From: Brevibacterium limosum
Lineage (GTDB): Bacteria > Actinomycetota > Actinomycetes > Actinomycetales > Brevibacteriaceae
Length of the DNA stretch: 64,000 bases
Assembly: GCF_011617705.1 (NCBI RefSeq)
Contig: NZ_CP050154.1
Coordinates: forward strand, 3,162,001-3,226,000
Direction of reading: 5' to 3'
Shown: one piece after another, positions 9,411 through 18,340 of the stretch
How the letters are laid out: every line of letters starts with the position of its first letter
Position numbering within the stretch: position 1 is the first letter of the stretch
Translations under genes and position numbers: made by a program
The notes under the pieces: generated by a model
Database searches by the model: none
What the model saw: the letters and a program-made list of their open reading frames with translations, nothing else
What the model was told of the DNA's origin: nothing

Positions 9411-9518
9411 CCGACCGTCGATTCCGCAATAGCTGTGAGCCACTTCACGTCGATGTCCCATCTCTGCTGAGAGCAGAAACCCTCGCCGAGGCGGCCCTGC
9501 GAACCGTAGGCTCACCCC

Positions 9519-9878
9519 ATGACCCACATGCTCCCGCACAGTCCGACCCCGCCGCCGCTGTGGCGTGAGGCGCTCGGACGCGCACTCCGACTGCGCCGGA
9601 CCGACATGGGTCTCACCCTGGCACAGGTCTCCGAACGGTCCGGGGTCTCGACCCAGTTCCTCTCCGAGATCGAACGCGGGCTCAAGGACCCGTCGTCGGA
9701 GGTCATCGAGGCCGTCGCAGCGGTCCTCGGTCTGCAGCTTCCGCAGATTCTCGTGCTCGCAGCTGTCGGCATGACCTCCGGGGTCTCCGCGACCGCGCTG
9801 CTGTCCGCCGCCGATATGACGCGAGCCGCACCCTCTCCGCCGGCGGCGGGTCAGGTGCGGCTCGCTCTGGCTGCCTGA
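9519..9878 (+). CDS. XRE-family regulator resembling ClgR/PopR
   Basis: A 119-residue DNA-binding protein with a helix-turn-helix near residues 18-75 (LWREALGRALRLRR, LTLAQVSERSGVSTQFLSEI, ERGLKDPSSEVIEAVAAVLGL). The ERG-K-SSEV pattern is that of ClgR and PopR, the actinobacterial activators of clp protease genes. Those proteins are themselves Clp substrates through their C-termini; this one ends in small residues (LALAA), which would fit such a degron. Four kilobases away lie a clpP pair and a ClpC-like gene, its plausible targets. No clear ribosome site, so the mRNA may be almost leaderless; ATG 9528 is an alternative start. Confidence 0.75.
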   Translation: MTHMLPHSPTPPPLWREALGRALRLRRTDMGLTLAQVSERSGVSTQFLSEIERGLKDPSSEVIEAVAAVLGLQLPQILVLAAVGMTSGVSATALLSAADMTRAAPSPPAAGQVRLALAA

Positions 9879-10284: not shown

Positions 10285-10959
10285 TCAGCGTTCGTTGAGC
10301 CAGCCGGGCGACACCAGCCCCGATTCGTAGGCGAGGACGACGAGGTGGACGCGGTCCCGGGCCCCGACCTTCGTCATGATGCGGGAGACATGGGTCTTCG
10401 CGGTCAGCGGGGAGAGCACGAGCGATGCGGCGATCTCGTCGTTCGACTGACCTCGGCCGACGAGCGCGAGGACTTCGCGTTCCCGGTCCGTGAGGACGTC
10501 GAGCCCGGCGTCAGGCTCCGCCTTCAGCCCCAGTGACATGCGGGAGAGCAGGTACTTCGTGACCTCGGGTGAGAGCAGAGCCTCACCGGCGGCGACGACG
10601 CGCACGGCTCGGATGAGGTCGGTCGGGTCGGTGTCCTTGAGCAGGAAGCCGCTGGCCCCGGCGCGCACGGCTCGAACGATGTACTCGTCGAGGCCGAAGG
10701 TCGTCACGAGGACGACGCGGACGGCGTCGAGCCGCGGATCGGCGGCGATCTCCTCCGTCGCCCAGAGACCGTCTCCGCCGGGCATGCGGATGTCCATGAG
10801 GACGACGTCGACGGGCGCTCTGCGCAGCGCGTCGAGGAGGTCCTGCCCGCCGGAGGCTTGGATCGTGACCGCGATGTCGTCCTCGGAATCCAGCAGCGAG
10901 GCGAAGCCGGCGCGCACGAGCTGATGATCGTCGGCGATCGCGACTCGGATCGGTGTCAT
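10285..10959 (-). CDS. NarL/LuxR-family response regulator
   Basis: 224 residues. The receiver domain (1-120) has acidic pocket Asp10/Asp11 and phosphoacceptor Asp56 in VVLMDIRMP. The output domain (about 150-215) is a LuxR-type helix-turn-helix (LTDREREVLALVGRGQSNDE, then IAASLVLSPLTAKTHVSRIM). Its start overlaps the stop of the sensor kinase gene by four bases (ATGA), so the two are translationally coupled and form one system. Targets are unknown; the SHOCT protein gene just downstream may be part of the unit. Confidence 0.93.
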   Translation of the reverse strand: MTPIRVAIADDHQLVRAGFASLLDSEDDIAVTIQASGGQDLLDALRRAPVDVVLMDIRMPGGDGLWATEEIAADPRLDAVRVVLVTTFGLDEYIVRAVRAGASGFLLKDTDPTDLIRAVRVVAAGEALLSPEVTKYLLSRMSLGLKAEPDAGLDVLTDREREVLALVGRGQSNDEIAASLVLSPLTAKTHVSRIMTKVGARDRVHLVVLAYESGLVSPGWLNER

Positions 10960-12311
10960 CGCCGCGCCTCCTCGTCGGGTGTCCCTGTCGGGTCGACGCT
11001 CCAGGGAAGGTCGACGTCGACGGTGGTTCCCCGCTGACCCGCCGATGACAGTTCGAGTGCTCCGTTCAGCAGCTTCGCCCTCTCGCGCATGCCCATGATT
11101 CCCGCCCCTTCAGCACCGCCGGACATCCCCGTCCCATCGTCGCTGATGCGCACGCGCAGTCGGTCCGAGTTCCGTTCGATCACGACCTGTGCGCTGTTGG
11201 CCCGCGCATGTCTGAGCACATTCGTCAGCGCTTCCTGGATGATCCGATAGGCGGCCGCATCCGTCGACTGGCCGGGGTTCGCCCGCGCTCCTTCGGCGTC
11301 GGTGTCCCGCCGATCGTCCACGCTGATGTCGGTGGAGCCGACGAGGCGGGAGATCAGAGCCGGGACATCGTCGAGCCCGAGCACCGGTGCCAAGGGCGCC
11401 GGCTCCGCCCCGTCCGCAGAACCGGCGTCCGAGCGCATCGTGTGCAGCACGGTGCGCACTTCATTGAGCCCGGTGCGGCTGAGCTCCCTGATCGCGGCGA
11501 GCGCCGAACGAGCCTGCTCGGGGTCGCGGTCGATGAGGTGTTCGCCGACTCCGGCTTGGACGTTGATCTGGGACAGAGCATGGCCGAGGACGTCGTGGAC
11601 ATCCCGGGCGATGCGCAGTCGTTCGGCTTGGACCACCTCGGCGTGGCGAGCGCTCTGTTCGGCTGCCTCCTGGCGCGCCAGCTCGCCGCGGCGCCGGACG
11701 AATGCGCCGATGCCCACGGCGATTGCCAGTCCCATCGTGGCCGAGACCACCCGCCCCACCGACCAATCGATTCCCAGCATGGGGCCGAGCAGCAGGCAGC
11801 CCACCCAGACTCCCGCCGCCGAGGCGATCGCCCAGAGCTGACGTCCGCGGACCATCGCGGCGAGGACGGCGAAGAGGAAGGCGGCATAGAACGGCGTCGT
11901 CCTGGGCCCGGCCTCCACCGGTGACCACGGTCCGCGGTCGCTCCACGGGCTTGGTCCCATTCCGTGTCCGCCGGATCCTGCATCGGGGGTTGCTGCCGCC
12001 CACACCAGGATGTCGAGGAGGGCAAGTCCCGCCAGTGCTGCCGCGCGCGGTCCCGGCCACCTCGCTGCGAAGAAGAAGATCGCAGGTGAGACGACCGCAG
12101 TGCCGATGCGGACGGTCATCGCGGCCGCAGACGTATCGGCCTGGGCGGCAAGGACGATGGCGAACGGCAGCTGCAGCACCACTGCGGCGACGGTGAGAAG
12201 GACGATCCGTCGGCGTGCGCGCGGCGGGGATCCTTCCGCGGGTGCGCGGAGGTCTGGACGGTCCGTTCTCATTCTCCGATCGTAGCGACCCGCGCCCGAG
12301 GCCGTCGTCAT
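10956..12311 (-). CDS. Sensor histidine kinase (HisKA_3 type), partner of the NarL regulator
   Basis: Up to 451 residues. Several membrane helices occur in residues 35-205. A HisKA_3 dimerisation domain follows with the phosphorylated His239 in RIARDVHDVLGHALSQ, and then an HATPase_c domain (IIQEALTNVLRHA, ISDDGTGM, GIMGMRERAKLLNG). The extracytoplasmic part is short and rich in Gly, Pro and Trp, so the signal is probably sensed in the membrane or just outside it. The start is uncertain: ATG 12272 with GGAG almost touching it, or ATG 12311. The stop overlaps the response-regulator start. Confidence 0.92.
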   Translation of the reverse strand: MTTASGAGRYDRRMRTDRPDLRAPAEGSPPRARRRIVLLTVAAVVLQLPFAIVLAAQADTSAAAMTVRIGTAVVSPAIFFFAARWPGPRAAALAGLALLDILVWAAATPDAGSGGHGMGPSPWSDRGPWSPVEAGPRTTPFYAAFLFAVLAAMVRGRQLWAIASAAGVWVGCLLLGPMLGIDWSVGRVVSATMGLAIAVGIGAFVRRRGELARQEAAEQSARHAEVVQAERLRIARDVHDVLGHALSQINVQAGVGEHLIDRDPEQARSALAAIRELSRTGLNEVRTVLHTMRSDAGSADGAEPAPLAPVLGLDDVPALISRLVGSTDISVDDRRDTDAEGARANPGQSTDAAAYRIIQEALTNVLRHARANSAQVVIERNSDRLRVRISDDGTGMSGGAEGAGIMGMRERAKLLNGALELSSAGQRGTTVDVDLPWSVDPTGTPDEEARR

Positions 12312-12352: not shown

Positions 12353-12934
12353 TCAGAGGATGACGTCGACGAGTCCGAAGTCCCGTGCCGCCTGTGCGTC
12401 GAGGACGAGGTCGCGATCGAAGTCACGGTGGATCTGCTCCGGGGTCCGACCGGTGCTGTCGGCGAGCATCTCTTCGACTTCTCGGCGCTGTCGCACGATC
12501 TCGTCTGCGGCGACGATGAGGTCGGGGATCGTGCCCCGTGCTCCTTCGGCGTGCGGCTGCCGCAGCACCGCGCGGGCGTGGGCGAGCATCGCCCGCTGCC
12601 CGGGCTCTCCGGCGGCCAGGAGCACGGCCGCGTCGGCGGCGGCCTGCCCGACGCAGGTGGTGGCCACGGGTGAGCCGACGTGGTGCATGGCGTCGAAGAT
12701 CGCGGTCATCGCGGTCAGTGACCCGCCCGGGGAGTTGATGTACATGCTGATCGGCAGATCCCGGCTGCTCGAATCGAGGTGCAGCAGCTGCGCGATGATC
12801 GTGTTCGCCACCCCGTCGTCGACGGGCACGCCGAGGTAGACGATGCGATTGCCGAGCAGGTGAGAATAGACGTCGACGATCTTCTCGCTGCCACCGGAGC
12901 GGTCGACGACGTTGGGAATCGTGTACTGGCTCAT
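12353..12934 (-). CDS. ClpP-like subunit lacking catalytic Ser and His
   Basis: 193 residues, plainly homologous to ClpP (MSQYTIPNVVDRS, MYINSPGGSLTAMTAIFDAM, RDFGLVDVIL). The catalytic elbow GQAAS of active ClpP reads GQAAADAAVLLAAG, so the nucleophile is Ala100. The histidine of the HQP motif is replaced by arginine (HARAVLRQPHAE). The aspartate region FDRDLVLDA is kept. I checked both changes on the nucleotide sequence. It should be proteolytically dead but may still form a ring with the active subunit encoded just upstream, whose stop it overlaps by four bases (ATGA). Loop lengths are normal, so this is not simple decay. Confidence 0.9.
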   Translation of the reverse strand: MSQYTIPNVVDRSGGSEKIVDVYSHLLGNRIVYLGVPVDDGVANTIIAQLLHLDSSSRDLPISMYINSPGGSLTAMTAIFDAMHHVGSPVATTCVGQAAADAAVLLAAGEPGQRAMLAHARAVLRQPHAEGARGTIPDLIVAADEIVRQRREVEEMLADSTGRTPEQIHRDFDRDLVLDAQAARDFGLVDVIL

Positions 12935-13566
12935 CGGGTTCCTCCGATCTGCGCGTGCAGATCGGCCGGGGAAGTCAGGACCCGGTCGACGAGTCCGTAT
13001 TCGATCGCCTCCTCGGCGGTGAACCATCGGTCCCGCAGTGAGTCTTCGAAGATGCGTTCGTACGACTTCTCGGTCGCCTCGGCGACCCGGGTGAGCACGG
13101 AGTCCCGGACCTCGCGGAGGTCGTCGCCTTGGAGTTCGATATCGGCGGCGGCTCCTCCGATCCCACCAGAGCCCTGATGGAGGAGGATGCGGGCGTGGGG
13201 CAGGGCCAGACGTCTTCCGGGTGTGCCCATACTGAGCACGAACTGCCCCGCCGAGGCGGCCCACCCGAAGGCGATCGTGACCACGTCATTGGGCAGGGCG
13301 GCGATGGTGTCGGCGATCGCGTGCATCATCGGCACGGATCCGCCGGGAGAGTTGATCCACAGGTGGATATCGGAGCGTGGGTCCTCGGCGGAGAGGAGGA
13401 CGAGGCGGGAGATGATCTCCATTCCGTTCTCGTCGCGCAGCTCTCCGTTGAAGACGACGGATCGGTAAGCGTAGAGCATTCTCCGGGATTCGGGGATCGC
13501 GGTCGTCGTCGGAGACTCGTCGGCCTCGGAGAACACCAATGGGCTGGTTGCGGTTCGTGTGGGCAT
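12931..13566 (-). CDS. clpP: ATP-dependent Clp protease proteolytic subunit ClpP (active paralogue)
   Basis: 211 residues with the full catalytic set: Ser105 in GWAASAGQF, His130 in ARILLHQGSGG and Asp179 in SLRDRWFTAEEA. The sequence resembles the ClpP3-type accessory subunits of Streptomyces more than the housekeeping ClpP1/ClpP2. The usual neighbours of the latter, tig and clpX, are absent. The start at 13566 gives a normal-length propeptide region. It is the first gene of a two-gene operon with the catalytically dead ClpP-like gene. GTTCGC (minus strand, 13597-13592) lies 25 bases before the start and resembles half of a ClgR site; this is weak evidence. Confidence 0.92.
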   Translation of the reverse strand: MPTRTATSPLVFSEADESPTTTAIPESRRMLYAYRSVVFNGELRDENGMEIISRLVLLSAEDPRSDIHLWINSPGGSVPMMHAIADTIAALPNDVVTIAFGWAASAGQFVLSMGTPGRRLALPHARILLHQGSGGIGGAAADIELQGDDLREVRDSVLTRVAEATEKSYERIFEDSLRDRWFTAEEAIEYGLVDRVLTSPADLHAQIGGTR

Positions 13567-13707
13567 GTCTCCACTGTGCAACCCAGCGACGGCGAACCGA
13601 GCACGGATCCGCTGGAAGCGGGACCGTGCCGCTGTGAGCGGACGGGCACATCTGAGGCTCCGGCGACCCTTGACTCTTCGACCGGGCCCGGACTTAGGAT
13701 CGACGGC

Positions 13708-15790: not shown

Positions 15791-18340
15791 TCAGGCGACG
15801 ATCGGCTCCGGTCGGGTGCCGGCCACGACCTTGAGAGCACCGTCGACGACGGTGGCACGCACGGTGCCGCCCTCTTCGACCGCCTCGGTGACGAGGAGAT
15901 CGGCGATGCGGTCGTCGAGCTCGCGCTGGATCGCGCGACGCAGCGGACGGGCACCGAACTCGGGTTCGTAGCCTTCATCGGCGAGCCAGTCGAGAGCCTC
16001 GGCCGAGACGTCGAGGGCGATGCCCTGAGCCTCGAGACGCTGCTTCGACGCAGCGAGCTGGTGAACGACGATGGAGCGCAGCTGCTCGCGATCGAGCCGC
16101 GAGAACATCACGGTGTCATCGATGCGGTTGATGAACTCCGGCCGCATGAACTCCTTGAGCCGGCCCATGACCTTGGCCTTGAGATCCTTCTCCGCATCCC
16201 CGGCGGTACCGGAGGCGAAGCCCAGCGGAGTGCCGGACATGAACTCGGAGCCGAGGTTCGAGGTCATGATGATCACGGTGTTGCGGAAGTCGACCGTGCG
16301 GCCCTGACCGTCGGTGAGACGTCCGTCGTCGAGGACCTGCAGCAGCAGGTTGAACGCATCCGGGTGGGCCTTTTCGACCTCGTCGAGCAGGATGACCGAA
16401 TACGGGCGGCGGCGGACCTTCTCCGTCAGCTGACCGGCCTCGTCGTAGCCGACGTAGCCGGGAGGAGCACCGACGAGACGCGACACCGTGTGGCGTTCGC
16501 CGAACTCGCTCATATCGAAGCGGATCATGGCCGACTCGTCGTCGAACAGGGTCTGTGCCAGAGCCTTCGCCAGCTCGGTCTTGCCGACACCGGTGGGGCC
16601 GAGGAAGAGGAAGCTGCCGATCGGCCGGTTGGGATCGGCCATGCCCGTCTGGCTGCGGCGGATGGCACGCGACACGGCGGTCACGGCCTCGTCCTGACCG
16701 ATCACACGGTCGTGGAGGACCTCTTCCATGTTCGCCAGACGCATCTTCTGGCTCTGCGTCATCCGTGCTGCCGGGATTCCGGTGGCGCGGGAGACCACAT
16801 GAGCGATCTCCTGCTCACCGATGATCGCCTCGGCGGCAGCCGTCTTCGCGGCCTGCGCGTCCGGGTTCTCGGCGGATCCGATACGGGCGGCCACCTCGTT
16901 GATCTCATCGCGGACACGACCGGCGCGCTCGTAGTCCTCGACCTCGATCGCGGACTTCTTCTCCGCTTCGAGCTCGGAGAGCTTGAGCTTGAGCGCGTCG
17001 ATGTCGACGCCGGGACCGCGCCCCAGCGACATCCGGGCACCGGCCTGGTCGATGAGGTCGATGGCCTTGTCCGGCAGGAACCGGTCGGTGATGTAGCGGT
17101 TCGACAGCTCCACGGCGGCCCGGACCGCCTCGGCGGTGTAGGTGACCTCGTGGAACTCTGCGTAGCGGTCCTTGAGTCCGTCGATGATCGTCACCGCGTC
17201 CTCGACGCTCGGCTCGCCCACGGTCACCGGCTGGAAGCGGCGTTCGAGAGCCGAATCCTTCTCGATGGTGCGGTACTCCTTGAGCGTGGTCGCGCCGATC
17301 ATGTGCAGATCGCCGCGGGCCAGTCGCGGTTTGAGGATGTTTCCGGCATCCATCGAGTTCGCTTCGCCGTTGCCGCCGGCACCGACGAGGGTGTGGAGTT
17401 CATCGACGAAGACGATCATGTCTCCGTCGTCGGCGATCTCGTTCAGTGCTCCGGTCAGGCGCTCCTCGAAATCACCGCGGTAGCGGGTGCCCGCGAGCAT
17501 TCCGGGCATATCGAGAGCGATGATGCGCTTGCCCTGCAGCTGCTTGGGCACCTCACCCGAGTGGATGGCCTGTGCGAGGCCTTCAGCGACCGCGGTCTTG
17601 CCGACGCCGGCTTCACCGAGGAGGACCGGGTTGTTCTTCGTCCGGCGAGCGAGGATCTCGATCGTCTGCTCGATCTCCTGCGAACGGCCGATGACGGGAT
17701 CGAGCTTGCCTTCGGCGGCGAGTTCGGTGAGGTCGGTGCCGAACTTCTCCAACACGGATTCCTGACCGTCCTCACCCTCGGCGTCCTGACCGGGGTGCAT
17801 GCCTCCGGCTTCGGCCGCCTCGGCACCGGCCTGCAGGGCTGCCTGCGTGACTCCCGCCTGCGCGAGGATCCGACCGGCGGGCATCTCCTGATTGAGCACG
17901 AAGGCGAAGAACATGTGCTCCGGATCGATGTAGGTCGACCCGAAGGCCCGCGCCACCTGATAGGCGTCGAGCAGAGCGCGCTGGGCCGAACCGGTCAGTG
18001 TGGGCGTGGAATCCGCCCCGGTGTCGGTACTGGCCGGAAGGCGCTCTTCGATCGCATGGGCGATGAGCTCGGGGTCCGCACCCGCCTGACGCACCGCGGA
18101 GATTCCGGGTTCGGAATCGACCATGGTGCGCAGGATATGGAGTGCGTCGACCTCAGACTGGCCGTGACGCCCTGCGAACTCCGCAGCCGCTTCGATGACT
18201 TCATGGCTGCGCTTGCTCAGCAGTCGGTTGATGTCGACGGAACGGCCTCTGCGGGCTCCGGTCTGTCCCTGGAGGAAACGAGCGAGGAACTCGTCGAACG
18301 AGTCTCCGCCCGAGCCTGCGGGTCCGAAGAATGTGGCCAA
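15791..18340 (-). CDS. ClpC/ClpA-type AAA+ unfoldase, probable ClpP partner
   Basis: 849 residues. Residues 35-180 are two Clp_N repeats. AAA-1 has Walker A GEAGVGKT and Walker B IVFVDELH. A short UVR-like middle segment (EVEDYERAGRVRDEINEV) replaces the long ClpB coiled coil. AAA-2 has GPTGVGKT, VILLDEVEKA and GAPPGYVGYDEAG. After the second Walker B the sequence SGTPLGFASG carries an LGF tripeptide, where ClpA/ClpC place the loop that docks on ClpP. It is therefore an unfoldase for a ClpP barrel and not a ClpB disaggregase. TTG start with GAGGAGG eight bases before it. A HAIR-like repeat in the leader suggests HspR control. Its likely partners are the clpP pair 2.5 kb away. Confidence 0.9.
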   Translation of the reverse strand: MATFFGPAGSGGDSFDEFLARFLQGQTGARRGRSVDINRLLSKRSHEVIEAAAEFAGRHGQSEVDALHILRTMVDSEPGISAVRQAGADPELIAHAIEERLPASTDTGADSTPTLTGSAQRALLDAYQVARAFGSTYIDPEHMFFAFVLNQEMPAGRILAQAGVTQAALQAGAEAAEAGGMHPGQDAEGEDGQESVLEKFGTDLTELAAEGKLDPVIGRSQEIEQTIEILARRTKNNPVLLGEAGVGKTAVAEGLAQAIHSGEVPKQLQGKRIIALDMPGMLAGTRYRGDFEERLTGALNEIADDGDMIVFVDELHTLVGAGGNGEANSMDAGNILKPRLARGDLHMIGATTLKEYRTIEKDSALERRFQPVTVGEPSVEDAVTIIDGLKDRYAEFHEVTYTAEAVRAAVELSNRYITDRFLPDKAIDLIDQAGARMSLGRGPGVDIDALKLKLSELEAEKKSAIEVEDYERAGRVRDEINEVAARIGSAENPDAQAAKTAAAEAIIGEQEIAHVVSRATGIPAARMTQSQKMRLANMEEVLHDRVIGQDEAVTAVSRAIRRSQTGMADPNRPIGSFLFLGPTGVGKTELAKALAQTLFDDESAMIRFDMSEFGERHTVSRLVGAPPGYVGYDEAGQLTEKVRRRPYSVILLDEVEKAHPDAFNLLLQVLDDGRLTDGQGRTVDFRNTVIIMTSNLGSEFMSGTPLGFASGTAGDAEKDLKAKVMGRLKEFMRPEFINRIDDTVMFSRLDREQLRSIVVHQLAASKQRLEAQGIALDVSAEALDWLADEGYEPEFGARPLRRAIQRELDDRIADLLVTEAVEEGGTVRATVVDGALKVVAGTRPEPIVA

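Follow-up and report, generated by a model that had tools for sequence, protein, structure and literature searches.

Why is a ClpP subunit that has lost its cutting site kept beside one that has not? The main known examples of silent ClpP subunits come from cyanobacteria, plastids and apicoplasts, and the earlier note on the locus treated here held such a subunit to be unusual in actinobacteria. The locus lies in a 64,000-nucleotide stretch of the Brevibacterium limosum genome (contig NZ_CP050154.1, positions 3,162,001 to 3,226,000), referred to below as the window.

The clpP3-clpP4 gene pair

The clpP4-type gene (12353-12934, reverse strand) encodes a ClpP-fold subunit of 193 residues with a ClpP2-like docking pocket. 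In its translation, the nucleophile position is occupied by Ala100 (GQAA[A]DAAVLL) and the catalytic histidine position by Arg125 (HARAVL[R]QP), with Asp175 retained (DFDR[D]LVL). Alignment of the motifs at these positions to E. coli ClpP needs no gaps, and in place of the intact Ser-His-Asp of a catalytically active ClpP, clpP4 reads Ala100-Arg125-Asp175. The replacement of Ser and His in an otherwise intact fold and frame, as read in the earlier note, is borne out by the full-length product, by a match to Pfam CLP_protease (PF00574, E 2.3e-57) and by a confident AlphaFold model of the ClpP fold (pLDDT 91.7). The best structural matches of the model are M. tuberculosis ClpP1P2 chains (46% identity, TM ~0.93).

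The active partner is encoded by a clpP3-type gene (12931-13566, reverse strand), also matched by PF00574 (E 1e-53). Translation confirms that this upstream gene overlaps clpP4 by 4 nt (ATGA) and, as the earlier note had it, retains a complete triad: Ser105 in GWAA[S]AGQF, His130 in ILL[H]QG and Asp179 in LR[D]RWF. The genome carries four ClpP genes in two pairs; the window pair is not the housekeeping one, which sits elsewhere (2253647-2254842) with its triads intact.

Conservation of the silent subunit in the genus

A relative of the dead subunit, in addition to the housekeeping pair, is found in 32 of 57 genomes of the genus, of which one (G010) counts by a 55% relative only, the others being close. 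Ala100, Arg125 and Asp175 are invariant in 31/31 species, although only 97 of the 193 alignment columns are, and the two replacements are spelled by different codons (GCC, GCT or GCG for Ala100 and four forms for Arg125). Identity of both residues through three Ala and four Arg codons argues against chance or sequencing error. A loss confined to one strain, with Ser and His in all close relatives, did not materialise when the orthologues were aligned, since all 31 carry Ala and Arg; what the earlier note had described as a silent subunit paired with an active one is thus a conserved arrangement. Pairwise dN/dS has a median of 0.113 in the dead subunit and of 0.112 in the active partner (for the latter, a core of 152 codons from 20 species), and clpP4 is under purifying selection at the same level as its partner. 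G010, which is the most distant member of the genus, carries Ala at the nucleophile position with the His still present, which suggests that Ser may have been lost before His.

Triad loss across the Actinomycetota

The sample was widened beyond the genus to the order, the class and named genomes, giving 268 distinct second subunits in all. A Ser-His-Asp triad is present in 74 of these, whereas Ser is lost in 157, His in 66 and one or both in 187; about 30% retain Ser and His together. Counting the intact pattern, 26 triad patterns occur. An evenly drawn class sample has Ser or His lost in 65/110 second subunits, with 38 fully intact. Replacements include Ala-His-Asp (Nocardia, Rhodococcus and Mycolicibacterium), Gly-His-Asp (Microbacterium and Agromyces), Trp-His-Thr (Nocardioides), Phe-His-Asn (Paenarthrobacter) and Ser-Gly-Asp (ClpP4 of 8/8 named Streptomyces). 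Far from being unusual in actinobacteria, a damaged triad is the majority state of the second subunit in this PopR-linked pair, and Streptomyces ClpP4 is among the examples, with Gly in place of His.

The first subunit behaves differently. Its Ser-His-Asp triad is present in 262/263 sequences, the sole exception being cut by a contig end, such that all 262 fully readable copies are intact, and the housekeeping ClpP1 and ClpP2 have intact triads in 59/59 cases. On a maximum likelihood tree of second subunits built with the catalytic columns removed, and with reversal allowed, at least 12 changes between retained and lost Ser and His are required on the best tree, or 7 when branches below 95 support are collapsed; if loss is assumed to be irreversible, 30 separate all-dead clades result, the exact number of losses being limited by low-support parts of the tree and by possible Ala-to-Ser reversals. 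Loss of the cutting site has happened repeatedly and through different replacements in the second subunit, and never in its partner.

Several loci merit separate mention. In the eight Streptomyces loci, Gly replaces the catalytic His within LLGQP. In six Nocardioides-type loci the nucleophile is changed to Trp, often together with a change of Asp to Thr, the active site being filled by a bulky residue. A 386-kb plasmid of Tsukamurella tyrosinosolvens (NZ_LR134452.1) carries a clpP3-clpP4-HTH cassette that is annotated as two ordinary Clp proteolytic subunits.

The PopR-like regulator and its operator boxes

A popR-like helix-turn-helix regulator gene (9519-9878, forward strand) is convergent with the pair, and its product ends in a Clp degron-like VRLALAA. 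In Streptomyces, PopR activates clpP3-clpP4 via tandem TCTGCC-N3-GGCAGA-type repeats, and terminal alanines mark PopR-type regulators for Clp degradation (PMC9775585). A popR-like gene is near the pair in 12/12 other regions of the genus and in 133/140 loci of other genera, where it is usually convergent and its product nearly always terminates in -LAA or something close to it. Between clpP4 and popR, the window also has a two-component system (response regulator and HisKA_3 kinase, 10285-12311), which some species of the genus share and others lack.

Footprinting upstream of clpP3 in the genus identifies two conserved CCGCT-N3-AGCGG boxes. In the window, these predicted PopR-type operators occupy 13609-13621, some 42 bp ahead of the clpP3 start, and 13629-13641, 20 bp from the first; the first is conserved in 29/29 genus loci tested. 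The strict Streptomyces PopR box, with three mismatches allowed, occurs in the window only in chance numbers. The 300 nt that precede the clpP3 domain start contain a relaxed box (CYGCY-N3-RGCRG) in 228/258 loci, compared to 0.05 expected per locus from the remainder of the same DNA; the consensus was built partly from this genus, such that the genus count is not independent and the counts of other genera are. No recognisable box of this form was found in the other 30/258 loci. The spacing between paired boxes is 15 bp for most lineages and 20 bp for this genus. A perfect palindrome of the PopR-box type, TCTGCTGAGAGCAGA (9463-9477), just upstream of popR suggests that popR may control itself. 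The linked PopR-like gene and the PopR boxes assign the pair, by sequence, to the PopR-controlled ClpP3-ClpP4 type.

The ATPase docking pocket and a neighbouring, putatively ClpI-type ATPase

All Streptomyces Clp ATPases dock via ClpP2 (PMC9765437), and the mycobacterial ATPases bind ClpP2 only (PMC6889138). At the pocket position of E. coli Tyr62, 186/187 dead second subunits have Tyr; at that of Phe82, 186/187 have His, Tyr or Phe. Nearly all second subunits, dead or not, carry an aromatic residue or His at both positions. By contrast, the live partner has Trp, Tyr, Leu or Ala at the Tyr62 position and mostly Leu at the Phe82 position. The dead subunit keeps the docking pocket and the live partner tends to lose it, in support of the earlier suggestion that the silent subunit serves mainly for docking, which is now probable.

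A double-ring Clp ATPase, putatively of the ClpI type (15791-18340, reverse strand), is encoded nearby, with Clp_N, AAA, UVR, AAA_2 and ClpB_D2-small domains and an LGF loop (TPLGFASG). A ClpIa ATPase is expected to have an LGF loop and an M-domain of ClpC length and to stand between ClpB and ClpC; the LGF motif and a UVR match are present here, and the scores fall below the NCBIfam ClpB and ClpA cut-offs. Three other genes of this genome also encode a ClpB_D2-small domain. The ClpI-type ATPase is near the pair in most of the genus, being absent there in 4/12 other genus regions, and no relative of it was found within 3-10 kb of the pair in 140 loci of other genera; a constant partnership with ClpI is therefore ruled out beyond this genus. 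Where present, it is probably a dedicated or alternative motor.

A proposed backup core in which one subunit cuts and the other docks

The reading preferred here, and held to be quite likely, is that the locus encodes a backup Clp core switched by PopR, in which ClpP3 cuts and ClpP4 docks the ATPase and activates ClpP3. This draws on the ClpP2-like character of the dead subunit, its retained pocket and the published docking via ClpP2. We infer that ClpP3 and ClpP4 share a single heteromeric barrel and divide the labour in this genus; the dead subunit is probably retained because its task is gripping the unfolding motor and not cutting.

In the proposed mechanism, the Clp protease core from this locus would be additional to ClpP1P2, would be made only under certain conditions and would resemble ClpP3-ClpP4 of Streptomyces. 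ClpP3 would supply the peptide-cutting sites. ClpP4, devoid of them, would have a structural part in the ring: the Clp ATPase (ClpC, ClpX or the nearby ClpI) would dock on it, and its assembly with ClpP3 would activate the latter. As long as housekeeping ClpP1P2 works, PopR would be destroyed through its -LAA degron and the operon would be off; once ClpP1P2 fails or is blocked, PopR would accumulate, bind the tandem boxes and cause the backup core to be made. The observations made here concern sequence, conservation, purifying selection, asymmetric triad loss, pocket conservation and PopR with its boxes; degradation of PopR by ClpP1P2 is taken from published work on relatives.

Some findings count against this reading. 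The active site of ClpP2 does matter for ClpX-driven GFP-ssrA turnover in M. smegmatis (PMC6889138); thus, loss of this site is not always silent. The second subunits that keep Ser and His, the loci without a box and the presence of ClpI near the pair in part of the genus only also weigh against it.

Why the site was lost, and other roles for ClpP4

That the second-subunit site is dispensable, drifts and has been lost without a function of its own is a doubtful account, though one compatible with a docking role. Many different replacements in different lineages are in keeping with such neutral decay, as is the finding that Streptomyces ClpP2 S131A has full activity, the ClpP2 Ser being dispensable for casein degradation (PMC9765437). 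Drift is nevertheless not seen in the genus, where Ala100 and Arg125 hold while their codons change synonymously, nor elsewhere, with Trp held in 8 Nocardioides-type and Gly in 24/24 Streptomyces-type sequences; and the housekeeping ClpP2 is intact, such that dispensability in vitro is insufficient for loss. Since dispensability alone explains neither the retention of the housekeeping site nor the fixed replacements, other candidates are considered, namely structural filling of the site, tuning of product size, and freedom from active-site inhibitors in a backup core that is called upon just when ClpP1P2 has been blocked. Insensitivity to ADEP has been reported for ClpP3P4 (PMC12607617). A wider proposal, which is tentative, is that the Actinomycetota backup core became a half-dead barrel many times, independently and adaptively: the dead ring would dock, loss of the nucleophile and of the live-ring pocket would render the core insensitive to beta-lactones and ADEPs, and PopR would sense housekeeping failure.

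A dominant-negative or regulatory ClpP4, which would form inactive or half-active barrels with ClpP3 or housekeeping ClpP1/ClpP2 and so damp or redirect stress proteolysis, is improbable. The conservation of the dead subunit under purifying selection would suit this role, and one ADEP producer reportedly has a ClpP variant that disrupts ClpP1 complexes activated by ADEP (PMC12607617). However, in most loci the gene overlaps that of its own active partner by 4 nt, which points to stoichiometric co-assembly, and S. lividans requires clpP1P2 or clpP3P4 for viability (PMC9765437), which indicates that a ClpP3P4 core functions despite the Gly-for-His of Streptomyces ClpP4.

Descent of clpP4 from the ClpR of cyanobacteria or plastids is very improbable. 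The functional pattern of a silent ClpP homologue with an active partner is shared; yet clpP4 is closest to actinobacterial ClpP2, and other actinobacteria have intact members of its subfamily. NCBIfam PRK12552, which we take to be the cyanobacterial ClpR model, scores clpP4 at 149 bits against a cut-off of 263, below the active housekeeping ClpPs of the same genome (164 and 157), and kinship with ClpR is not supported. A pseudogene, recent strain-specific loss or sequencing error has a negligible probability given the shared residues at both sites in 31/31 species, the intact frames and a dN/dS of 0.11.

Comparison with known systems

The closest counterpart is Streptomyces ClpP3-ClpP4 (PMC9765437, PMC9775585). 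The two systems share a second clpP pair, an adjacent and convergent popR with an -LAA end, tandem CYGCY-N3-RGCRG boxes, the same subfamily by profile and tree, and a second subunit without a triad residue. They differ in the residues lost (Ser and His in the window ClpP4, His to Gly in Streptomyces), in box spacing (20 bp compared to 15 bp), and in the two-component system between clpP4 and popR and the nearby ClpI ATPase of the window. A literature search found no published notice of a dead second subunit in actinobacteria, Streptomyces included; the primary PopR papers (2000, 2002), which lie outside that search, could mention one. Streptomyces 'ClpP4' is annotated and discussed as a protease subunit but is predicted not to cut, and ClpP3P4 is predicted to be half silent, which bears on the resistance of the backup system to Clp-targeting antibiotics.

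Within the genus, the secondary clpP pair and its clpIa neighbourhood are known from Brevibacterium linens, where clpIa lies beside a secondary clpP1-clpP2 locus, apparently the same neighbourhood as that of the window (PMC10149685). That report does not mention the lost triad (the word 'catalytic' is absent from its text), and its passages on the locus do not refer to PopR. The housekeeping ClpP1P2 of Mycobacterium and Streptomyces shares the two-gene operon, ClpP1-like then ClpP2-like, with the docking pocket on the ClpP2-like subunit, and differs in that both of its subunits have Ser-His-Asp.

The earlier note likened the pair to the arrangement of ClpR subunits, which stands as an analogy and falls as kinship. 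Like the ClpR of cyanobacteria, plastids and apicoplasts (PMC7966870), clpP4 is a ClpP homologue without a working triad that has an active ClpP partner, its catalytic residues lost and its fold intact by AlphaFold model and alignment. Unlike ClpR, it is of a different lineage, belongs to a group with several independent losses and is unrecognised by PRK12552. The Actinomycetota, including antibiotic-producing Streptomyces, represent a replicated natural experiment on why hetero-barrels keep silent rings, and clpP4 is best read as a subunit that works like ClpR but is not ClpR.
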